Notes under the pieces: model-generated | Seen by the model: the letters and a program-made list of their open reading frames with translations, nothing else | The model's database searches: none | Told to the model about the DNA's origin: nothing | Source: Saprospiraceae bacterium | GTDB lineage: Bacteria; Bacteroidota; Bacteroidia; Chitinophagales; Saprospiraceae | Assembly (NCBI GenBank): GCA_019187225.1 | Contig: JABAQQ010000038.1 | Coordinates: forward strand, 1-58,960 | Length of the DNA: 58,960 nt | Reading direction: 5' to 3' | In this document: piece by piece, positions 4,719 to 47,738 of the stretch | Layout of the letters: each line of letters opens with the position of its first letter | How positions within the stretch are numbered: position 1 is the stretch's first letter | Made by a program: the position numbers and the translations under genes

Positions 4719-7703
4719 ATGCATATTTACCGGATTCTTTTCTTTTGGCTTTGGCTGTGTACTTCAACGGCACAAACCCCGGCTTATTTGCGCTATGGTG
4801 TAACGGATGGCTTGCCCGGCAATCTCGTCTATTGCGGTTTGCAGGACAGCCGGGGGTTTCTCTGGTTTGGCACGGACAAAGGACTGGCACGATTCGACGG
4901 CAGCCGGTTCCGGACTTACAGTATGGCGGATGGTCTGCCGGATCTGGAAGTACTCAATATGAAGGAGGATACGAAAGGGAGAATATGGCTGTTCTGTTTC
5001 CGCAGGAAGCCCTGTTATCTTTATCAGGGTCAGGTCATCACGGAAAAACAGGATTTATTGCTGGCCAAAATTGGTTTTGCAGGCGGGTCGTATAATATTT
5101 CAGAAGATTCGAGTGGCGGTATCTGGCATTTTGAACCCTCTTACAAGGCATATCGAATGGGGGAGAGTGAAATAACCTCTTACAGTTTTCCCAAAGGAGC
5201 TGCGGCTTTACAGAAAATCGGGTCGGATTACTTAGTGATCGGCACGCATTCCATCATGAAATTTACACCTGGCCGGCAAATAGAAATCATCTATCAATTA
5301 CAATCCGACTACAGACTGCCTTCTATCGGCGTATCGAAAAATCATATTCTATACTCTTATACGGATAAACTATTGTTGCTGGAGTGGGAAAAAGGTAAAA
5401 TCAAAAAAACGATGGAGCTTCCTCATCCTTCGGGACAAGTTTATACCGACAGGAAAGGGCGTTTCTGGGTCTGTTCGCCAACTTTGGGCGCCGTTTGTTT
5501 TGACAATGCGCGTCAGGATTTGTCCAATCCGGTGACTTATTTACCCGGGAAAAAAGTCACAGCAATGTTCGAGGATAAGCAAGGCACCTACTGGTTCTGC
5601 ACCAATGATGAGGGCGTTCTGGCGCTTCCTAAAAATACTCCGGTCACCTATGCAAAGAGCTTCTTGCCCTCCAGCAACATTCGGACGATTTCGAAGAATG
5701 ATGCAGGACAAATTCTAATAGGCGACGATATCGGGAACGTGCATCTGATCAGGGGAACCACGATCAGCACCATTCCTTTTGGCGCAGTGGACGGATACAA
5801 TTTGATCCGGCAGATCATACCGGTAGCGAACGATGGTTTCTGGGCCGCATCGGACGAGTCCCTGCTCTATTGTGCGGATAATTATCTTCGAGCGATCCGG
5901 CACAACCTTCCCCACAGTCTGAAATCCATTGCTATTCAGAACGATAAAATATGGATCGCATCCGCTTCCCGTTTGGGATATGTCCGGCCCAAGGAGAATA
6001 TGTCCAGTCAGGACGTCATTAAAGCCCGTTTTACATCCGTTTGCCACGATGGCAACAATGTATGGGCGGGTAGTATGGAGGGCTTATTTTCCCAGGCAGA
6101 TAGTTTTCAAACAAACTGGGGAGAATATTTTCCTGAACTGAAAAGCCGGATCACGACCATCAACCGGGCGGATGCTGATCACATTTGGGTCGTGACCCCT
6201 GAAAGCGGGTTGTTGTCGGTCGCAGTCAAATCCGGCAAGATCACCGGCGTTGAGGTGGTGAACAAGCGCCTGAAACAGCCTATCCACAATGTTCAATCCC
6301 TTTATGTCGAACCGAATGGAAACATCTGGCTGGCTACCAATCGCGGCGTTTACGGTCTGAGCAGAGATGGCCGGATAATTCATTTCAACCGCTATGACGG
6401 ACTGGCCGACGATGATGTGAATGCGGTGCTTGTTCATCACGATACCTTGTGGACAGGAACTGTTGCCGGCTTGACGCGTGTCATACTTAAAGAGCCCTAT
6501 GAGCGCGGCAATTTCAGGACTTATATAACGGCGTTGCGATATCAACAGGACAACCAACCCCGGTTCCAGTTTTTGGCGGATTCTTCTGTCGCGAAACGCG
6601 AGATCATTTTGCCGCCCAACGCCGTGAACCCGGAGATGGAAATATCCGGACTGGATTTCCGGAGCCGGGGTAACCTGTCGTATGTGATTATTCAAAAGGA
6701 TATGTTGTTGCCGGTTCCATGGTGGACGTTGGACAATATATGGCGCTGGCTGACAGGCAGTTTTCGGGATGGGAGAGATTCATTCAGGGTGAGTGCGCCA
6801 CTATATGCTTTGGGCGCTTATCTGCCACCGGGGCGATACCAATTTCAGGTCACTGCGGTGAAAGCTTCCGGTATTCCAAGTCAGTACCCGGATACCTGCA
6901 CGCTGACAAAACTACCCTATTGGTACGAAACTTTGTGGTTTTATATGTTCATCTGGGGTGCTATAATCTACGCTGTATGGCGCGTTTACCGGGTTCGCGC
7001 AGATTATCGCAAGGCGCTGATTGCCGCATCCACACTCCAGTTGCAGGCGCTGCAGGCGCAGATCAATCCACATTTTATCGGCAACGCCATCAATGCCATC
7101 CAGCAGTTTCTATACCCTCCCAATCCGGTAAAAGCCAGTGAATACATTTCGCTTTTTATGCGTTTGCTGCGCCGCACCATGCTGTTTTCCGAAAAAACGT
7201 TTATCACCTTTCAGGAAGAACTGGACTACAACCACGAATACCTCGAACTGTCGCGGCTGCGGTTTGAACACCACTTCCAATTCCAGATCAACGGCGCTTC
7301 TCAAATTCCGCCTGATACTCCCGTGCCAAGCATGCTGATTCAGCCTATACTGGAAAATGCCACCATACATGGCTTGGCGCCCAAGGGAGTCTCCGTCATC
7401 CAACTTGATTTCCGCTGCGAAAACGAACGGCTGCAATGTATCCTGACGGACAATGGCATCGGTTTTAAAGAAGCGCAAAAGCGAAAACAACTGACCGGCG
7501 TTCAACACGAATCCAAGGGACTGGAAATGCTCCAGAAAAAGATCAGCACGCTCAACCGGTTGTATGACCTGGAATTGAAACTTGAAATGGAAGATATGTC
7601 GGAAGGTCAACCCGCACGTGAAGGCACACGTGTAACGGTTGTTTATAATGTAGCCAAAGCATGGAAAAGCGCAAACAAACCTTCAGAGCATAAACAGGGA
7701 TGA
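4719..7703 (+). CDS. propeller-type sensor histidine kinase, LytS-like (His_kinase family)
   Basis: A 994-residue membrane sensor. ATG 4719 gives a clean signal peptide (MHIYRILFFWLWLCTSTAQ); the open frame upstream lacks a plausible start. Residues 20 to about 640 are two-component-regulator propeller repeats (GLPGNLVYCGLQDSRGFLWF, then repeated W-G/N-x-L blades), followed by a Y_Y_Y-like beta domain, one transmembrane helix (about 737-758) and a LytS-type kinase: phospho-acceptor His785 in QINPHFIGNAINAI, N box LENATIHG (about 878) and G box DNGIGF (about 911). Such kinases normally sit beside a LytTR response regulator, and none follows here. Ligand unknown; glycan or polymer sensing is usual for the architecture. 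Confidence 0.85.
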   Translation: MHIYRILFFWLWLCTSTAQTPAYLRYGVTDGLPGNLVYCGLQDSRGFLWFGTDKGLARFDGSRFRTYSMADGLPDLEVLNMKEDTKGRIWLFCFRRKPCYLYQGQVITEKQDLLLAKIGFAGGSYNISEDSSGGIWHFEPSYKAYRMGESEITSYSFPKGAAALQKIGSDYLVIGTHSIMKFTPGRQIEIIYQLQSDYRLPSIGVSKNHILYSYTDKLLLLEWEKGKIKKTMELPHPSGQVYTDRKGRFWVCSPTLGAVCFDNARQDLSNPVTYLPGKKVTAMFEDKQGTYWFCTNDEGVLALPKNTPVTYAKSFLPSSNIRTISKNDAGQILIGDDIGNVHLIRGTTISTIPFGAVDGYNLIRQIIPVANDGFWAASDESLLYCADNYLRAIRHNLPHSLKSIAIQNDKIWIASASRLGYVRPKENMSSQDVIKARFTSVCHDGNNVWAGSMEGLFSQADSFQTNWGEYFPELKSRITTINRADADHIWVVTPESGLLSVAVKSGKITGVEVVNKRLKQPIHNVQSLYVEPNGNIWLATNRGVYGLSRDGRIIHFNRYDGLADDDVNAVLVHHDTLWTGTVAGLTRVILKEPYERGNFRTYITALRYQQDNQPRFQFLADSSVAKREIILPPNAVNPEMEISGLDFRSRGNLSYVIIQKDMLLPVPWWTLDNIWRWLTGSFRDGRDSFRVSAPLYALGAYLPPGRYQFQVTAVKASGIPSQYPDTCTLTKLPYWYETLWFYMFIWGAIIYAVWRVYRVRADYRKALIAASTLQLQALQAQINPHFIGNAINAIQQFLYPPNPVKASEYISLFMRLLRRTMLFSEKTFITFQEELDYNHEYLELSRLRFEHHFQFQINGASQIPPDTPVPSMLIQPILENATIHGLAPKGVSVIQLDFRCENERLQCILTDNGIGFKEAQKRKQLTGVQHESKGLEMLQKKISTLNRLYDLELKLEMEDMSEGQPAREGTRVTVVYNVAKAWKSANKPSEHKQG

Positions 7704-22149: not shown

Positions 22150-24000
22150 ATGACGATTAAACTACCGACGCTTATGACTGAAACACGCACATCCAACCGA
22201 ACTGAAGCCTCCAAAAGAGGGGGTTTATCAAATCTTGAAAGACTGGTTAAGGGACATTTAAAAAGGCTTGAACATAAATATCGCAAGCACTATACCCGCT
22301 ACAGCGCTGTCCAAATGTGCGACCTCTCCCGTGCTTGCGCAGCCCTCCAAATTGGCCTCGAACTGGGAAAGGGAGAAGGCTACAGCGGCGCCTGGCTCCG
22401 CGACTTCGGCGCAGTGCTCGACCGGCTGGGAGTGCGCTACTTGCCCACCAACTGGCGCAGACTGAAGGAAAAATTAGAAGCCGTGCGTGTTGGCGGCTTA
22501 CCTATATGGCAGGTAATAGACCTGCCACGCGCCGGAAACCAAAATGCCCGACGCCTCGACGACATGGAAATGGAGTTGTGGATCGTGCAGATGCGCGGGA
22601 TGCCGCAAAACTTCACCTCAGCCCATATCATCCGGAAAATCCGGCAGATGTGCGAACTGACAGGAAAGCGTCAGCCCTCGGAATCCTGGCTTTCGGCGAT
22701 GTTGGCAGCGCCCGCAACACACTTTCTGACAAGTGCCGGGCGCTATGGCGAGCGGGGCAAGTTGGGCCAGGTATACCGCGAATATACGCCGGTTGCAAAT
22801 GCGCTTTTCGCTGACGACGCCTGGCAACTGGACGGAACCAGGGTGAACTTCATCCCCTGGAAGGACGAAAACGGACGCGAGCAGTTCCTGTACATGGTCG
22901 TCTGCCGGGATGTTCACAGCGGCATGATCCTCGGCTGCCATTTCTCGCTGACAGAAGACCGCTGGGCCTACGTCAACGCCCTGATGATGGCCTGCCGGGT
23001 GACGCACAGCCTGCCTTACGAGGTCGTAATAGACCGTTTTCCTGGTCATAACACCCCGGAATGGCAGACGATACAGGGGCGAATGGAAGCCATTGGAGTG
23101 AAGGTGAGTTACAAGCACACGGCGCAGGGTAAGGCGCAAATGGAACGCTGGTTCGGAACGCTACAGTCGGTTTTCTTCCAGGAAAGCCCTTACTACTATG
23201 GCGAAGGTATCCAGAGTCGCCGCCCTGCTGCCCATCGCAGCGCCGAATACCTGAAAGCGGTGCGCAAAGTGGCAACAAAAGAAGGCTGGAACATGGACAC
23301 AGCGACCCGCGAAGCGATGATGTGTATCAGTCGGTACAACGAAACGCCGCTGAATACCTACAGCCGCAAACACGCCGCCATAACGCACAGCCCGCAGCAA
23401 CTCTACCAAATCTCCGAAAAACCCCACTGCAAGACAGTGGCCGACTGGCAACGCACGATGCTATTCGGCCTGATGAAGCGGGTAACGATTCGGAACAGCA
23501 TGATCAGGACGGAAATCCACCGCGCAGAATATCACTACGCAGTGCGCGATTACGACACTGTGAAAAACCACCGGCAAGTATGGCTTGCCTACGACCTGGA
23601 AGACCTCTCGAAAGCCTGGATTTTTGAAGACGACGACAAACGACTCCTTAACCCGAATTGCCTGTGCGAAGTGGATTTGATTCCACGGGTGCAGGTATTC
23701 GGCCCCGAAGCAGACTACAAAGCACTTGGCCGCGACGCTCGGCGCAGGGGCGAAACAGAAAGCAAACGCACACAGGAAATTGAAGCAATCAGGGGCGCGG
23801 GAAGCCCGGTAGCGATAATGCTCAACGGCCTTGCTCCCAAAGGCGAGGCGGAGGAGGCGGAAAGCTGCTGGCTGCTCGAACAACTCGAAAAATCAACCGC
23901 GCCGAGAGTTTTCGCACTATCGGACAACAGCGAGGAAACTGAGCACCCGGAAGTCGGCGACGACATTGATATAGCGGCCTTGGTGCTCTCACAAATGTAA
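22150..24000 (+). CDS. DDE transposase, Mu A type
   Basis: 616 residues; catalyses strand transfer of the phage ends for integration and replicative transposition. The RNase H-fold core carries the acidic triad Asp228 (AWQLDGTRVNF), Asp295 (VVIDRFPGHN) and Glu332 (GKAQMERWFGTL), with an rve-type spacing. Residues 1-200 should hold the end-binding helical domains, recognising the 18-bp repeats; the C-terminal beta-barrel and acidic tail (DDIDIAALVLSQM) likely contact the MuB-like ATPase. The start could also be ATG 22174. MuA itself is 663 residues. The gene is in the early operon behind the Ner-like regulator. Confidence 0.9.
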   Translation: MTIKLPTLMTETRTSNRTEASKRGGLSNLERLVKGHLKRLEHKYRKHYTRYSAVQMCDLSRACAALQIGLELGKGEGYSGAWLRDFGAVLDRLGVRYLPTNWRRLKEKLEAVRVGGLPIWQVIDLPRAGNQNARRLDDMEMELWIVQMRGMPQNFTSAHIIRKIRQMCELTGKRQPSESWLSAMLAAPATHFLTSAGRYGERGKLGQVYREYTPVANALFADDAWQLDGTRVNFIPWKDENGREQFLYMVVCRDVHSGMILGCHFSLTEDRWAYVNALMMACRVTHSLPYEVVIDRFPGHNTPEWQTIQGRMEAIGVKVSYKHTAQGKAQMERWFGTLQSVFFQESPYYYGEGIQSRRPAAHRSAEYLKAVRKVATKEGWNMDTATREAMMCISRYNETPLNTYSRKHAAITHSPQQLYQISEKPHCKTVADWQRTMLFGLMKRVTIRNSMIRTEIHRAEYHYAVRDYDTVKNHRQVWLAYDLEDLSKAWIFEDDDKRLLNPNCLCEVDLIPRVQVFGPEADYKALGRDARRRGETESKRTQEIEAIRGAGSPVAIMLNGLAPKGEAEEAESCWLLEQLEKSTAPRVFALSDNSEETEHPEVGDDIDIAALVLSQM

Positions 24001-24135: not shown

Positions 24136-24205
24136 GGCAAGCATTGCGACGGTAGTCCTGGAGGCTCATAATCTCCGGGAGCGGGTTCGATTCCCGCCTT
24201 TGCTG
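24136..24205 (+). tRNA. tRNA-Met(CAT)-like gene with reduced D arm
   Basis: The anticodon arm is well formed: GGAGG / CTCATAA / TCTCC (24160-24176), with the usual C32, T33, CAT, A37, A38. A four-base variable loop precedes a perfect T arm GCGGG-TTCGATT-CCCGC (24181-24197). The acceptor GGCAAGC (24136-24142) pairs with CTTTGCT (24198-24204) at six of seven positions, two of them G-T. The D arm is only GAC-GGTA-GTC, well short of normal, and CCA is not encoded. It may be a functional phage tRNA of unusual shape or a decaying one. Confidence 0.4.
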
Positions 24206-24271
24206 CAAGTCAAGCCCCCCGGCTTTTATTCTTCACAAATCCCGCTTCGGCGGGAGCAAAAAACAAACACA

Positions 24272-25249: not shown

Positions 25250-25502
25250 CTAAATGCCCTCCCTGTCGGGCAAAAACCGCCAGTAGGATAAGCGGGAAAA
25301 GACAGCGACGCGAGCCTACCCACCACTACCATATTATTCTTGACCGCAGGTGTGCAGAAAGGTGGAGCCTGCCGATTGCAAAAAATTCTGCCAGCCCGCT
25401 ACGCTGCGAGTACGGATAATCTACCTAATCCCCCCTCTTTTTTTTCCGCTGTCGCCTTGGCGAAAGCGGGCATATCACTTGAAACACGAACAGCAGAAAA
25501 AT

Positions 25503-26435
25503 ATGTCAACTATGACCGACGAACAAAAAAATGCCATAGTCGCACTGATTGAGACAGAGATAAACCGTCTCGGCAGTCAGGAAAAAACCGCTAAAAAGTG
25601 TGCCGTCAGCGCCGCTACGCTCACCCAGATGCGAGCGGGCAACTGGACGAACATCGCCGACGCGATGTGGAACAAAGTCGGCTCCGCGCTCGGCTACCGG
25701 CCACAAGGCTGGACGATGGCCGAAACCACCAACGTTCGCATGATGTACCGGGTGCTCGACAACGCCAAATCCGGCAGCCTCTTTATGGCTGTATCAGACA
25801 AAGCGGGCAGTGGAAAGACGGCTGGCCTACGCGCCTACGAAGCCGAAAACCGTCGCAACTCGGTATTCTACCTTTCCTGCCGCGAATGGGCCAAGCGAGA
25901 ATTTCTTCAAAACCTCGCCCAATCGCTCGGCCTCGAGGCATGGGGCAAAGCCCAATCCATTGACAAGATGCTGATGGATGTGGTGGATTTTTTCAAACAG
26001 CGCCGCGCAATGCGTCCGCTGCTTATCCTCGACGAAGCCGACAAACTGCGTGGGCCGGCTCTGCGCAGCCTCATTACCCTCTATAATGAATGCGAGGATG
26101 AAATGGGCGTTCTCATCGCAGGCACCGACCACTTAGAAAAGCAGATGCGCTCCGATGCCCGCTACAACCGCAAAGGAGCCGAGGAACTGCTTAGCCGGTT
26201 TGGTAGCCGGTTCATCAACCTGGCCGGTGCTACCGATATGGATGTGCAAAATATCGCCAACGCCAACGGCCTGAACGATATCGCCACGATAAAAGCCATC
26301 TTCAAAGAGTGCGAGCCGGTACGCCGAATGGTAGGCAACCGCAGCGTAGAAGTTGTGGAAGATCTGCGGCGCGTCAAACGCGCCGTGCAGCGTGAACTAC
26401 TTAAACAAGCCGGGGCCATTGCCGAGGCAGCATAG
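25503..26435 (+). CDS. MuB-like AAA+ ATPase, transposition target selector
   Basis: 310 residues from ATG 25503; the frame upstream crosses a 250-base gap and includes a Cys/Pro-rich stretch unlike coding sequence. Residues 1-75 hold a helix-turn-helix resembling the MuB N-terminus (KKCAVSAATLTQMRAGNW). The ATPase core follows: Walker A SDKAGSGKT (Lys105), Walker B PLLILDEAD (about 174-182), and sensor/arginine elements near GAEELLSRFGSRF. MuB polymerises on target DNA, stimulates the transposase and confers target immunity; the same is expected here. Position after the transposase is conserved with Mu, apart from the two exported genes between them. Confidence 0.85.
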   Translation: MSTMTDEQKNAIVALIETEINRLGSQEKTAKKCAVSAATLTQMRAGNWTNIADAMWNKVGSALGYRPQGWTMAETTNVRMMYRVLDNAKSGSLFMAVSDKAGSGKTAGLRAYEAENRRNSVFYLSCREWAKREFLQNLAQSLGLEAWGKAQSIDKMLMDVVDFFKQRRAMRPLLILDEADKLRGPALRSLITLYNECEDEMGVLIAGTDHLEKQMRSDARYNRKGAEELLSRFGSRFINLAGATDMDVQNIANANGLNDIATIKAIFKECEPVRRMVGNRSVEVVEDLRRVKRAVQRELLKQAGAIAEAA

Positions 26436-29425: not shown

Positions 29426-29496
29426 AATACAGTGCCGGAGCGGTCAAACGGCCCCCTTTTTAGGGGTGTTCACGGGTTCAAATCCCGTCTGTATTG
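29426..29496 (+). tRNA. tRNA-like gene, anticodon TTT (Lys) by position
   Basis: Perfect 7-bp acceptor AATACAG (29426-29432) with CTGTATT (29489-29495); positions 8-9 TG; a D arm of the Ser/Leu shape (CCG-GAGCGGTCAAA-CGG); an anticodon arm CCCC/GGGG with 7-base loop CTTTTTA, which places TTT at 34-36; a four-base variable loop; and a perfect T arm ACGGG-TTCAAAT-CCCGT (29472-29488). T at position 37 is unusual for a working tRNA, and CCA is not encoded. It lies just downstream of a terminator, so it needs its own transcription. Confidence 0.55.
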
Positions 29497-29539
29497 CGAG
29501 TAGATAGCCCAAAAATGCCACCATAAACACACTTAAATC

Positions 29540-42870: not shown

Positions 42871-43110
42871 ATGAATTGGGAAAATGTTTTTGAAAACTAC
42901 CCCGCCGTTACCGAGATATTCGTCGTTGGCGACATGCCGTTCATCAATTCCGATCACGCGCAGGCGCACAGCCGCTCCACCGGCTTGCCGGTGCAAACTG
43001 TGAAGCGCGGCCAGTCGAAGACTTCCGTTGAAGAGCCTACAGAACCCAAAGCGCCGAAGGAACCCAAAGCGCCGAAGGAACCCAAAGCGCCGAAGGAACC
43101 CAAAGCATGA
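42871..43110 (+). CDS. small protein with EPKAPK tandem repeats
   Basis: 79 residues: an N-terminal part (MNWENVFENYPAVTEIFVVG) and a tail of four near-identical Glu-Pro-Lys-Ala-Pro-Lys units. The repeats are coded by an 18-bp direct repeat (from about 43046 to 43107) with no silent changes, so copy number may vary. Pro/Lys tails often act as flexible spacers. No family recognised. Confidence 0.5.
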   Translation: MNWENVFENYPAVTEIFVVGDMPFINSDHAQAHSRSTGLPVQTVKRGQSKTSVEEPTEPKAPKEPKAPKEPKAPKEPKA

Positions 43111-43702: not shown

Positions 43703-44884
43703 ATGGCACTGCCAGGCGTATCTATAACACTCACAAACGGCGCATTGGGGCTTGTCGCCCCCGGGGAAGATAGCGTGGTCGGCATCATATTTAATGGTGT
43801 GGCGGCCAGCGGGCTTTCGCTCGGCGTGTCGTTTCAAGGCTTCGATCTCGCTGATTTTGAGGCTGTCGGCGTGACGAGCGCCTATGACACTACTAATTCG
43901 GTGGAAGTTTGGCGCCATATAAAAGAGTTCTACGACGAAGCCGGAGAGGGCGCCGAATTGTGGATAATGATCGTGTCACAGGCAACCAACGCGCAGACGA
44001 TCCTTGATAAAACAACGGCGAACGCGAAGAAATTACTTCAGGACGCAGGCGGGCGCATTCGCTTGCTGGCTGTGGCGCGTAACCCTGCCGGAGGGTATAC
44101 CCCGAACACAACGGCCAATGAGATTGATCTCGATATCGTCAACGCCCTCACGACTGGCCAGGCACTGGCCGACGATTTTCAGGCTGCCTTTACGCCTGTG
44201 CGCATCATACTCGAAGCATACGCCTTCACGGGCACAACCTCGACGCTCGCGAACCTCAAAGCGCAGACGAAGCCGAACATGGCCATCCTTTTGGGCGATA
44301 CGGAAAGCGGCGCCCGCTCTGCGGTGGGCCTGCTGCTGGGCCGGCTGGCGTCGGTCCCGGTGCAGCGAAATCCCGGGCGTGTTAAAGACGGAAGCCTGCT
44401 CATCACGGCGGCTTACCTCGGATCGGCCACACTCGAAAGTGACGAGAGCAAAGCGACTGCGATTCACGACAAAGGTTTTATCACTTTCCGCAAGCATCCG
44501 GGCAAAGCCGGGTACTATTTCAGCGACGACCCGACCTGTGTGGCAGCGAATGACGATTACAGCAGTCTGGCCCGTGGCCGGGTAATTGACAAAGCCATCC
44601 GCATCGCCGCCGAGACGTTCACCAACGAACTGCTCGACGAGGTGCAGATAGACGCGAACGGTCGCATTTCGACCAATAAGGCAAAATATTACCAGGCTAT
44701 CATTGACAACGCCGTAAACACGGCCATGACCGCCGAGGGCGAAATCAGCGCCTTCGAGAGTTTTGTAGACGACCAGCAAAATGTACTCAGCACGAACAAA
44801 ATCTGCATTGAGTTGCGCATCACGCCGGTCGGCTATGCGAAGCAAATCGAGATTCAATTGGGGTTCAACAATCCCGCAAATTGA
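43703..44884 (+). CDS. tail sheath protein (DUF2586-like)
   Basis: 393 residues. MALPGVSITLTNGALGLVAP at the start, VWRHIKEFYDEAGEGAELWI, ARNPAGGYTPNTT, SVPVQRNPGRVKDGSLLITA and, in the C-terminal half, GFITFRKHPGKAGYYFSDDP followed by YSSLARGRVIDKAIRIAAET form the pattern of sheath proteins of contractile tails (Mu gpL equivalent). The next gene is the tube protein. Confidence 0.85.
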   Translation: MALPGVSITLTNGALGLVAPGEDSVVGIIFNGVAASGLSLGVSFQGFDLADFEAVGVTSAYDTTNSVEVWRHIKEFYDEAGEGAELWIMIVSQATNAQTILDKTTANAKKLLQDAGGRIRLLAVARNPAGGYTPNTTANEIDLDIVNALTTGQALADDFQAAFTPVRIILEAYAFTGTTSTLANLKAQTKPNMAILLGDTESGARSAVGLLLGRLASVPVQRNPGRVKDGSLLITAAYLGSATLESDESKATAIHDKGFITFRKHPGKAGYYFSDDPTCVAANDDYSSLARGRVIDKAIRIAAETFTNELLDEVQIDANGRISTNKAKYYQAIIDNAVNTAMTAEGEISAFESFVDDQQNVLSTNKICIELRITPVGYAKQIEIQLGFNNPAN

Positions 44885-44892
44885 CCTGACAA

Positions 44893-45312
44893 ATGGCATT
44901 TAACTCGAAACAATACGCCTTTTCAGACATCACTGTCAACGTGCTGGGTCGCGAACTGCAAGGGTTTCGCGGCGTAAAATACAAGGTCTCGGTCGAGAAG
45001 GAAGTTTTGCACGCTCGCGGCAAAAAAGCCTTTAGCATCCAAAGCGGAAACGAGACCATAGAGGGAGAACTGATGCTTTTGCAAAGCGAACTCGAAGCCT
45101 TGCGCGCTGCGGTCAAGTCCGTGAACCCCGACCTAAAACTTACGGATGTCGCTTTTGACATCGTGGTGACATACGGCAACGGCACAACTGCCGTGACCGA
45201 CATCATCCAGGGCGCAGAGTTCACCGAATACGAAAAAGGCATGGAAAACGGCGACAAACAAATGGAAATCTCGCTGCCCTTCCTTGCGCTCGATGTGAAA
45301 GAGGGGGCCTAA
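44893..45312 (+). CDS. tail tube protein
   Basis: 139 residues, beta-rich with a single helix. MAFNSKQYAFSDITVNVLGR, GVKYKVSVEKEVLHARGKKA and the G-N-E-T-I-E-G-ELMLLQSELEAL segment match the tube fold (Mu gpM type). It lies directly behind the sheath gene and before a terminator and the chaperone pair, the universal order in contractile tails. Confidence 0.85.
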   Translation: MAFNSKQYAFSDITVNVLGRELQGFRGVKYKVSVEKEVLHARGKKAFSIQSGNETIEGELMLLQSELEALRAAVKSVNPDLKLTDVAFDIVVTYGNGTTAVTDIIQGAEFTEYEKGMENGDKQMEISLPFLALDVKEGA

Positions 45313-45397: not shown

Positions 45398-45919
45398 ATG
45401 GCGACGATAACTCGGAATGAAACAGGAACCCTGACCTTGATATTCAGGGACGGCTACAAAGCCGAATTCAAACAACCGACAGAAACCGTGCTCGCGCAGA
45501 GCATGACAAATCCCAAAAACCTCGCTTTTCATGCGGTGGATGTTTTGATAGACCAGTGCCTCATCGTCGGTGACAAATCGCTGCTCAAGCAGAAAGTAGC
45601 CTATTTGCGACAAATAGAGGAGGTGGCTGACGACCTTTTTGGAAAAGTTCCATGCTCTTTAGCATGGGATGAAGACCTGGCAACTTTCGAGTTTCTGGAT
45701 GGGAAAATGATTATCCTCAAGCCTGTGACGCGACAGGTATATGCAGATGCACAGGCCAAAACCCGGAACAACCGCCTGAACGCCGTAAGGCACGTGCTCA
45801 ATAATTGCTGGCACAGCGGCGACGATGAAATCAAAAAAAGCGCCGGGCACCTGTTAGGGTTCGTCGAGATCATGGAGGAATACCTCGACTACACCGGCGA
45901 GAAACTGGGAAACTCCTAA
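45398..45919 (+). CDS. tail assembly chaperone, short form (G-like)
   Basis: 173 residues. MATITRNETGTLTLIFRDGY, then helical sequence (VDVLIDQCLIVGDKSLLKQK ... NNRLNAVRHVLNNCWHSGDD ... GFVEIMEEYLDYTGEKLGNS) and stop TAA at 45917. Between tube and tape measure, this place always holds the chaperones that coat the tape measure during tail assembly. A slippery heptamer lies six codons before its end, so part of the ribosomes make the longer G-T fusion described at 45913-46083. Confidence 0.85.
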   Translation: MATITRNETGTLTLIFRDGYKAEFKQPTETVLAQSMTNPKNLAFHAVDVLIDQCLIVGDKSLLKQKVAYLRQIEEVADDLFGKVPCSLAWDEDLATFEFLDGKMIILKPVTRQVYADAQAKTRNNRLNAVRHVLNNCWHSGDDEIKKSAGHLLGFVEIMEEYLDYTGEKLGNS

Positions 45920-45940
45920 CCGGGACGGATGGCAGTCCCG
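45907..45940 (+). promoter_or_regulatory. programmed -1 frameshift signal
   Basis: GGGAAAC (45907-45913) is read as G GGA AAC in the short frame, a canonical X XXY YYZ slippery heptamer. After a 7-base spacer comes a perfect 6-bp stem CGGGAC (45921-45926) with GTCCCG (45935-45940) and 8-base loop, the stimulatory hairpin. The zero-frame stop lies only one codon past the heptamer. Confidence 0.85.
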
Positions 45941-46083
45941 AAGCAAACTGGATCGAGTACCACAACTCATTGCTACAATACTACCTGCACATAAGCGAGC
46001 CGGAAAAATTGCCCGACGAACTATGGGCGCTCAAAATCAAACAACTCGAACACATCCGCAAATCTGAATCGCAGCAAAAATGA
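45913..46083 (+). CDS. T-like extension of the tail assembly chaperone (-1 frame)
   Basis: After slippage, translation continues from 45913 in the -1 frame for 56 codons: LLTGTDGSPEANWIEYHNSL, then LQYYLHISEPEKLPDELWAL, then KIKQLEHIRKSESQQK, stopping at TGA 46081-46083, which overlaps the tape-measure ATG at 46080. It has no start codon of its own, is acidic/aromatic like known T domains, and the fusion would be about 228 residues. T domains bind the tape measure and the tube protein. Confidence 0.8.
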   Translation, partial: LLTGTDGSPEANWIEYHNSLLQYYLHISEPEKLPDELWALKIKQLEHIRKSESQQK

Positions 46084-47738
46084 GTGGTTTCAAATATCTC
46101 ATAGACTTGCAAGTGCTGAACGGCAGCGCCTTTGGCAAACTGGCTGCTGGCGCAGGACAGTTCGAGTCGGCGCTCGAAAGTGCGCAGGGCGAGGTAGGCG
46201 ATACCAACCGGGCGGTGAAAAAATTGGGTGATGACGGGCGGCGGTCTTTTGATGGGATGGCTGGCAGTGTTCGTTCCTGGTTGACTGGCCTTGCTATTGG
46301 GGCGGCAACACTGGGCAGCCTCAATGCTGCAGTGGATACGAGTAGCCTGGAAACTGCGATTGTTTTCGCCGGTGGAAAGGATGGCGCGGCCAACCTCGCT
46401 TTTGTCGAACAGTCCGTCACCGACCTGAACACGACCATCGAGTCGGCACTCAGCGGCTTCCGAACGCTGGAAGGCTCGATGATGGGAACAAATGTGACCG
46501 CGCAGCAAACCCGCGATATTTATCAGTCGGTGGCGGTGGCTTCGCGGGTAATGGGCCTGAGCGCCGACAATACGACCGGGGCGCTGCTTGCCCTCGGTCA
46601 AATGGCATCCAAAGGCAAGGTGCAAGCAGAGGAACTGCGCGGACAGTTGGGAGAGCGGATACCAGGCGCTTTCGCCATCGCAGCGCGGGCAATGGGCGTG
46701 AGCAATAGCCAATTAGACAAGATGCTCGAGAGGGGCGAAGTGATGGCAGAGGAGTTTCTGCCAAAGTTCGCGGCTGAAATGATGAAGACTTTTGGGCCTG
46801 GGCTTGAGTCCGCCATCAATGGCCCGCGCGCGCAGATGGACAAATTTCACAATTCCGTTTTTCGACTGAAAAACGAGGTGGGCATGGGACTTATGCCGGT
46901 GGCCACTGCGCTTATCAACAATGCCCTTGTTCCTCTTTTCAACCTCATCGGCAATAATATACCGCTCGTTTTCGGCCTTGCCGGGGCGGTGGCCGCACTG
47001 ACCTACAGAACGCAGTTGCAAGCCGCCTGGACGGTCATCACTACAGCTGGCACCTGGTCATTCACCGGCGCAATGACGGCTCTCAATGCAGCGATGATGG
47101 CAAACCCGGTCGGTTTCATCATCGCCGGGTTTATGGCGCTGGCAGGGGCGGTGACTTGGGCCTGGCAGAAATCGGAGGGCTTCAGGGGTTTCTTGTTCGG
47201 GATGTGGGAAACCATCAAGACGTTCGCAGGGCTTCTGATTGACCGATTTGTAAAGCCTGTAATTGGGGCATTCCAGGTATTGCGCGGTGCATGGAACGGA
47301 AGCACGGAGCAGATTCAGCAAGGAATGAGTACGCTGAATGAATCTGCCAACGCATGGAGCAAAGACTTTGGCTCTGAAATGGGCAATGCCTTCGATCGCG
47401 GCTGGAATAATGGAGTTGCGGATTTTCGCGGCGGCCAGTCTGCAACCGATACTGCCGCAAATCTGGGCGGAGCTGCGGCTCCATTCGGCGGCGCAAATTT
47501 CAACGCCAATACTCCTGCAAACAATAACACTGCTGGCTCACAAGCCAAACAGATGGCTGACAACATTACTGGCGGTGGCCAGCGTAATGTGACGATTCAC
47601 GTCGGGAAAATGACGGGTGTGGAAACATTGCATACGGTCAATATGAAAGAAGGAACCGAGCGAATCGGGCAGGAACTTATCAAAATCCTGTCACAGGTGC
47701 TTAACTCCGCAAATCAGATGCAAACGGCAAATGGCTGA
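46080..47738 (+). CDS. tail tape measure protein
   Basis: 552 residues. The N-terminal two thirds show the tape-measure/TP901 core: AIVFAGGKDGAANLAFVEQS, SALSGFRTLEGSMMGTNVTA, GKVQAEELRGQLGERIPGAF, and an alternating Gly/Ala helix pattern. Two or three hydrophobic stretches (LVFGLAGAVAALTYRTQL; PVGFIIAGFMALAGAVTW) are expected for DNA ejection through the inner membrane. Its length predicts a short tail. It starts within the chaperone stop (ATGA), so it is translationally coupled. Confidence 0.85.
   Translation: MSGFKYLIDLQVLNGSAFGKLAAGAGQFESALESAQGEVGDTNRAVKKLGDDGRRSFDGMAGSVRSWLTGLAIGAATLGSLNAAVDTSSLETAIVFAGGKDGAANLAFVEQSVTDLNTTIESALSGFRTLEGSMMGTNVTAQQTRDIYQSVAVASRVMGLSADNTTGALLALGQMASKGKVQAEELRGQLGERIPGAFAIAARAMGVSNSQLDKMLERGEVMAEEFLPKFAAEMMKTFGPGLESAINGPRAQMDKFHNSVFRLKNEVGMGLMPVATALINNALVPLFNLIGNNIPLVFGLAGAVAALTYRTQLQAAWTVITTAGTWSFTGAMTALNAAMMANPVGFIIAGFMALAGAVTWAWQKSEGFRGFLFGMWETIKTFAGLLIDRFVKPVIGAFQVLRGAWNGSTEQIQQGMSTLNESANAWSKDFGSEMGNAFDRGWNNGVADFRGGQSATDTAANLGGAAAPFGGANFNANTPANNNTAGSQAKQMADNITGGGQRNVTIHVGKMTGVETLHTVNMKEGTERIGQELIKILSQVLNSANQMQTANG

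Follow-up and report, generated by a model that had tools for sequence, protein, structure and literature searches.

Introduction

Long-tailed phages are said to share a conserved frameshift in their tail genes, reportedly described by Xu, Hendrix and Duda in 2004. The locus considered here raises the question of whether the gene lying between the tail tube and the tape measure of a Bacteroidota phage is translated into one protein or two. The window, which is the whole stretch of DNA that was analysed, comprises 58,960 nucleotides (nt) of contig JABAQQ010000038.1 from a Saprospiraceae bacterium (assembly GCA_019187225.1; 7.18 Mb in 73 contigs). On the evidence summarized below, it is very probable that a programmed -1 ribosomal frameshift yields two tail assembly chaperones, G and GT, from one message.

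Tail genes and frameshift signal in the window

The genes and signal elements of the locus, ordered as sheath, tube, G, -1 extension and tape measure, are as follows.

43703..44884, + strand: contractile tail sheath, 393 aa (PF10758, DUF2586, E 4.7e-59; phrog_907, tail sheath)
44893..45312, + strand: tail tube, 139 aa (phrog_4579, tail protein, E 1.9e-14; position)
45398..45919, + strand: gene G, predicted tail assembly chaperone, zero-frame product 173 aa (phrog_19076, unknown function, E 1.4e-7; position and conservation)
45416..45622, + strand: predicted chaperone domain copy 1 of G, residues 7-75 (short-G profile, domain E 6e-07; AlphaFold2 model)
45683..45898, + strand: predicted chaperone domain copy 2 of G, residues 96-167 (short-G profile, domain E 8e-11; N-half versus C-half profile-profile probability 99.0)
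45907..45913, + strand: slippery heptamer G_GGA_AAC (sequence; same place in related loci)
45914..45920, + strand: spacer TCCTAAC, 7 nt, containing the zero-frame stop TAA (45917-45919)
45921..45940, + strand: hairpin, presumed stimulator, with a 6-bp stem and an 8-nt loop (sequence; family-level structure enrichment here)
45913..46083, + strand: T extension in the -1 frame, 56 codons plus TGA (signs of purifying selection; two-helix model, mean pLDDT 92)
46080..47738, + strand: tape measure protein, 552 aa (TMP_3, PF20155, E 1.2e-23)

The 139-aa ORF is called tube mainly from its location behind the sheath, and its top PHROGs match is phrog_9206, labelled major head protein (E 3.7e-33). Mu-type head genes were recognized by Pfam elsewhere in the window (Portal_Mu, PF06074; Phage_Mu_F, PF04233), together with a Mu-like protease match under its cut-off and an AAA_22 protein at 25350-26435; the 616-aa ORF at 22150-24000 had no match to a transposase family in Pfam. 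Judged from its genes, the element appears to be a Mu-like contractile-tailed phage (myophage) of Bacteroidota, integrated in the genome. The closest sheaths on genome contigs were 72% identical (a Bacteroidetes MAG), 71% (a Saprospiraceae MAG) and 69% (a MAG labelled Proteobacteria), and the sheath of a cut viral contig, L072, was 80% identical. Two further stretches were recorded. A tRNA-Lys (UUU) gene at 29426-29497 (ARAGORN; Rfam 45.6 bits), probably within the phage, decodes the A-site codon of the AAAAAAG sites found in many relatives, not that of the GGGAAAC of the window, and a second ARAGORN call, tRNA-Met at 24136-24206, scored under the Rfam gathering score. At 43028-43110, the end of a 79-aa ORF carries a short tandem repeat of EPKAPK-like units with CCCAAAG every 18 nt.

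The 3' end of the ORF at 45398-45919 reads CTG GGA AAC TCC TAA, which places GGGAAAC in the X_XXY_YYZ register one codon (TCC) before the stop, and the hairpin stem that follows is formed by CGGGAC (45921-45926) and GTCCCG (45935-45940). No stop interrupts the -1 frame between 45829 and the TGA at 46081-46083, which overlaps the tape-measure ATG (46080) as ATGA, and the frame holds no ATG, GTG or TTG upstream of the TTG at 45970, about one third into the extension. A reading of this DNA from the sequence alone (hereafter, the sequence-only reading) had described the heptamer register, the stop one codon on, the 7-nt spacer and the hairpin, all of which proved exact to the base; its 56-codon -1 frame ending at the tape-measure start was borne out, and its fusion of about 228 residues agrees with the 228 aa obtained by conceptual reading of the frames. 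Its assignment of the locus to a G/GT pair in a Mu-like Bacteroidota phage is supported by gene place, order and conservation and by the Portal_Mu, Phage_Mu_F, DUF2586 sheath and TMP_3 matches.

The following course of translation can be proposed. Most ribosomes would read G to the TAA at 45917 and release the 173-aa protein. In a minority, tRNA-Gly on GGA and tRNA-Asn on AAC would slip one base back to GGG and AAA, the pause probably being caused by the hairpin 7 nt downstream, and translation of 56 further codons would then yield the 228-aa GT. If lambda is a guide, the tape measure would be coated by many G and few GT molecules, with the T part recruiting the tube subunit. What the sequences show is the signal, its conservation and the link with the tape measure; the slippage itself, its rate and these binding roles are inferred.

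Related loci and the spread of the -1 extension

With G as the query, relatives were found in only 2 of 395 genomes of the phylum besides the window's own genome, at no IMG/VR locus and, with E 0.01 as the limit, in no phage record; scanning IMG/VR for a hub protein also gave nothing. G being too divergent for finding its kin, the conserved sheath was used as the anchor, and 13 genome regions, 7 phage records, 32 genome contigs and the best 80 of 111 viral contigs were gathered. Including the window, 133 sources were scanned, some of them one record fetched twice. In 117 of the 133, a script detected an ORF of 80-300 aa that lies between tube and tape measure and has a -1 extension of 45-95 aa behind it; one more extension, at L054, where masked sequence precedes G, was seen by eye, giving 118. 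Since extension length enters the choice of G in the count of 117, a fairer count begins from the tape measure. A long ORF after the tube was present in 112 loci and was a tape-measure relative by profile in 108; a -1 extension runs past the G stop in 107 of these 108 (106 by script and L054 by eye). The sole exception is Meiothermus phage MMP7 (L039), whose extension is open in the +1/-2 frame, not the -1 frame; there (7280-7520) that frame stays open after an XkdN-like gene until the tape measure is reached. No extension was present in the four loci whose long ORF is not a tape measure (L024, L076, L078, L079).

The remaining 15 of the 133 comprise six loci cut by contig ends (L023, L051, L072, L095, L132, L143), five with G but neither extension nor adjoining tape measure (L024, L025, L027, L028, and L030, whose contig ends shortly after G), three with neither G nor tape measure at the locus (L076, L078, L079), and MMP7. 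L023, though cut, has AAAAAAG one codon before its G stop. Against a simple rule linking extension and tape measure stand 11 loci that have an extension and no adjoining tape measure found. Eight of them run into a contig end (L073, L077, L101, L104, L106, L119, L123, L141); in L026 and L029 no tape measure was identified among the one candidate tested in each; and in fF4 (L037) the gene annotated as tape measure is found at a distance, on the opposite strand. In the record of this Flavobacterium phage (L152; 12078-14078 and 23388-23923), the extension is kept although the tape measure is far from G, and GGGAAAG stands four codons before the stop.

Some loci of other composition were also noted. 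L153 (G316), L024, L025, L027, L028 and L030 carry contractile-tail clusters with sheath, tube and a G relative and without extension or adjoining tape measure; in L153 the G relative matches phrog_19076, and a holin and an fn3/Hint protein are also present. Such clusters possibly encode tailocin-like particles. The viral contigs L076, L078 and L079 have a DUF2586-type sheath and a tube, with no G found, and the ORF after the tube in L076 and L078 resembles tail-fibre and collagen-like proteins. The analyses below use a non-redundant set of 94 loci, from which 23 near-copies among the 117 were dropped and L054 was left out.

The slip site

A canonical XXXYYYZ heptamer separated from the stop by one codon (heptamer-NNN-stop) was present in 59 of the 94 loci, the window included: AAAAAAG in 49, AAAAAAA in 4, GGGAAAC in 3 (window, L041, L043), AAAAAAT in 2 and GGGTTTT in 1. 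In control ORFs it stood at the equivalent place in 9 of 565, and inside the G genes of the 94 loci at 111 of 10811 in-frame places (1.0%). Among the same 565 control ORFs, YYYZ occurred in 72, a -1 extension of 45-95 aa in 34, and heptamer and extension together in 4, all four of which come down to a single ordinary downstream gene that has an ATG.

The other 35 loci have no strict XXXYYYZ at the exact place. NNNYYYZ variants account for 26 of the 94 (GGAAAAG 15, GGTAAAC 6, GGTAAAG 2, AGAAAAG 2, AGCAAAG 1), and in L040, near kin of the window, GGGAAAC lies one codon later, directly before the stop. Eight of the 35 depart from the canonical form in the second half as well, GGGGGAA (L026), GGAGGAG, GGAGGAA, GGACAGG and AATAAGT being among them; three of these 8 (L032, L037, L116) have canonical heptamers 4-7 codons before the stop. 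The place of the slip site is kept and its letters vary across the family. The non-canonical variants fit published precedents and would presumably function in Bacteroidota as well.

A heptamer with an open -1 frame was also met at the end of another gene (L020, L021, L044, L047). This candidate was rejected: the gene behind it is an ordinary one that starts at an ATG of its own, and in the relative L108 the -1 frame is not open. It follows that these two features alone do not prove frameshifting.

RNA structure and upstream elements

The 50 nt that begin 5 nt downstream of the fixed heptamer position were folded and compared with shuffles in the 94 loci. The mean z was -1.41 at the site versus -0.37 at 60 nt further on and -0.33 inside G (paired p 1.6e-5 and 2.6e-5), and z fell below -2.5 in 26, 7 and 4 loci, respectively. 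In 78 of 94 loci pairing begins 5-8 nt beyond the site, the stretch starting at 5 by design. Given its composition, the hairpin of the window taken alone (-13.1 kcal/mol, z -0.71, equalled by 46 of 200 shuffles; z -1.54 for a folded stretch with slightly different limits) has no exceptional stability; its support comes from the family-level comparison. The near kin L041 and L043 have strong hairpins of different sequence (z -3.9 each), very strong ones occur in a few loci (L057, L075), and none was evident in L035 and L036. The notion that weak slip sites are offset by stronger structure did not hold overall, the mean z being -0.67 in the 35 non-canonical and -1.85 in the 59 canonical loci.

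A Shine-Dalgarno-like motif upstream of the heptamer was found in 30 of 94 loci versus 24.5 expected from synonymous shuffles (p 0.048), which makes an upstream stimulator of this type marginal. According to excerpts of one study, the ribosomes of Bacteroidia occlude the anti-Shine-Dalgarno, and prfB +1 frameshifting is nevertheless common there (PMC8710568); the marginal signal fits this occlusion.

The sequence-only reading had proposed that heptamer, hairpin and -1 frame should be conserved in homologous loci with no other start available. The -1 frame is indeed kept, mostly without another start, and structure is enriched in place, but neither the letters of the heptamer nor the sequence of the hairpin are conserved.

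Coding character of the T extension and alternative explanations

T is a conserved protein across the family, with a consensus around L.YYLHI.P..LSDEEWA...L..IRK, and its predicted structure consists of two helices (mean pLDDT 92). Four T extensions tested had no Pfam family match and gave one weak PHROGs match (E 0.15). Between the window and its close relative L041, pN and pS were 0.171 and 0.678 for T and 0.377 and 0.714 for G. pN was lower than pS for T in each pair of the four groups compared, synonymous sites being saturated in many other pairs, and in the Tenacibaculum group G is the better conserved of the two (L020 versus L021, pN 0.097 versus 0.009). By these substitution patterns the T extension is under purifying selection. 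The G stop is TAG in 62 of 94 loci, compared with 7-16% in sheath, tube, T and the four gene positions that come next, seven classes in all. A signal role of its own for TAG was entertained and then set aside, since the codon composition of the -1 frame can account for the excess: the G:A ratio is 1.94 at the third base of the G stop, 2.53 over the next nine -1 codons and 1.58 over the next nineteen. In composition, the third base of the stop resembles the first position of -1 codons, which indicates that -1 coding crosses the stop.

Three other explanations of the broken frame were weighed against the frameshift. T could be the product of a small independent gene, initiated at a start codon of its own or by ribosomes re-initiating at the G stop, without any fusion; some annotators have in fact called part of it as a small ORF in pippi8-1 (HWC86_gp39) and fF4 (QHJ72924.1). 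An ATG, GTG or TTG able to give at least 75% of T exists in 40 of 94 loci, but it is absent from the other 54, the window among them, and no ATG would do so in 86 of 94. Moreover, the extension is conserved from the heptamer onward, a separate start leaves the heptamer at its fixed place unexplained, and -1 coding across the G stop, as seen in the composition of its third base, argues for fusion and not for separate initiation. A separate gene is accordingly given only a slim chance.

Slippage of the RNA polymerase at A- or G-runs is slightly less probable still. It would suit the many relatives with AAAAAAG or longer A runs, whereas the GGGAAAC of the window has runs of three only, no run in the GGGAAAC, GGTAAAC and GGAAAAG sites exceeds four, and the RNA structure enriched downstream of the slip site counts against it. 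That the G stop is a sequencing error, or a recent mutation splitting one continuous gene, has a negligible probability: one added base would fuse the frames at any single locus, but 118 of 133 loci, drawn from isolates, MAGs and viral contigs, share the break at nearly the same position, some of them being copies (94 of 117 remain after near-copy removal), and a motif search for in-frame G-T fusions returned one candidate (L144), which was T read in its own frame. Programmed ribosomal frameshifting remains the explanation that we adopt.

Tandem domains and homology of the G chaperone

G proteins fall into two length classes, 94-147 aa and 171-232 aa. Of 30 long G proteins, 29, among them that of the window, gave two domain hits to the short-G profile (E < 0.01 each); the two halves of the L075 G are 51% identical; and the AlphaFold2 model of the window G (mean pLDDT 92) has a similar strand-helix order twice. 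Profile and model together indicate that the window G consists of two tandem copies of one chaperone domain, a duplication absent from the sequence-only reading. A tree of 58 domains (18 of the 30 long G proteins with both copies, plus 22 of the 59 short ones), built on 98 columns, which are few for so many rows, paired the two L075 copies with each other (100/92) and likewise grouped the L035/L036 copies (98/94). These groupings indicate more than one duplication, so that the domain was apparently duplicated more than once, and single-domain and two-domain versions coexist within the family.

No match of known function was found for G in the libraries searched (Pfam, PHROGs, PDB and BFVD). 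phrog_19076 matches the window G and four other G proteins of the family; for the window G, Pfam gave nothing over its cut-off and a PDB sequence search nothing. BFVD gave one clear match, the unnamed A0A6M2VCE7 (175 aa, E 7.5e-6), and a weak one in its third row, the tail assembly chaperone of Propionibacterium phage B3, with probability 0.96, E 0.073 and TM 0.34.

Significance

The window pair belongs to a long-known kind of device, of which these phages are added members. What they add is a duplicated chaperone, varied letters at a fixed slip place and an unannotated T. The G/GT frameshift would thus reach diverse contractile phages of Bacteroidota in which T goes unrecognised, and for annotation the T extension belongs joined to G. 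Slip sites, spacers and downstream structures vary naturally within the family, in hosts with presumably weak Shine-Dalgarno-type stimulation, and the one- and two-domain chaperones of the family make a link between domain number and tail building testable.

A wider reading that joins these points is put forward tentatively, and we consider it rather doubtful as a whole. In this reading, the device would be fixed in place and free in letters: P-site re-pairing through G.U or near-cognate contacts (G_GAA_AAG, G_GUA_AAC, G_GAG_GAG) would replace canonical heptamers; the A-site codon and downstream structure would carry the signal, because the ribosomes of the phylum hide the anti-Shine-Dalgarno; and chaperone domains would have been duplicated several times, independently and in parallel. 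If so, a single duplicated G could bind two segments of the tape measure, and the G:GT arithmetic behind tail length would be altered.

Comparison with known systems

In the one library searched, whose papers were available in part, no published description of the frameshift in these Bacteroidota phages was found. The nearest relatives with phage records are FPSV-S27, pippi8-1, fF4 and Peternella_1 (records labelled Winoviridae), which show sheath, tube, a G relative and a -1 extension in the order of the window, a likeness drawn from gene order and protein similarity alone. In the stretches covered of these four records, the G-T fusion is not annotated. They use AAAAAAG, or GGGAAAG in fF4, whereas the window, L040, L041 and L043 have GGGAAAC. 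According to excerpts of a review (PMC5009743), G_GGA_AAC is also the slip site of HCTV-1.

In lambda, G binds the tape measure and T binds the tube, at about 30:1 (PMC5009743, in part). The locus shares with lambda gpG/gpGT a chaperone gene between tube and tape measure, a heptamer at its 3' end and a -1 extension towards the tape measure; it differs in the duplicated domain of the window G, in G and T without a Pfam match above cut-off, and in the host, given the occluded anti-Shine-Dalgarno of Bacteroidia ribosomes (excerpts of PMC8710568). Phage Mu is alike in purpose and has related head genes. Its tail decoding uses a -2 frameshift (PMC5009743, in part), whereas the window and its Bacteroidota relatives use -1; the extension of MMP7 (L039) is in the +1/-2 frame.

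For the varied slip sites, the available parts of two sources offer precedents. Among the actinophage motifs outside the XXXYYYZ form that PRFect names is GGGGGAA, with G:U re-pairing (PMC10885494), and this heptamer also stands at the fixed place in L026; judged from its name, the 'twofour' class of PRFect may cover GGAAAA. Relaxed first halves are described for T7 gene 10 (G_GU) and several RNA viruses (G_GA) (PMC5009743), which the GGTAAAC and GGAAAAG of the Bacteroidota phages resemble. What differs from the actinophage and relaxed sites is that here such variants stand beside canonical sites within one Bacteroidota phage gene family.
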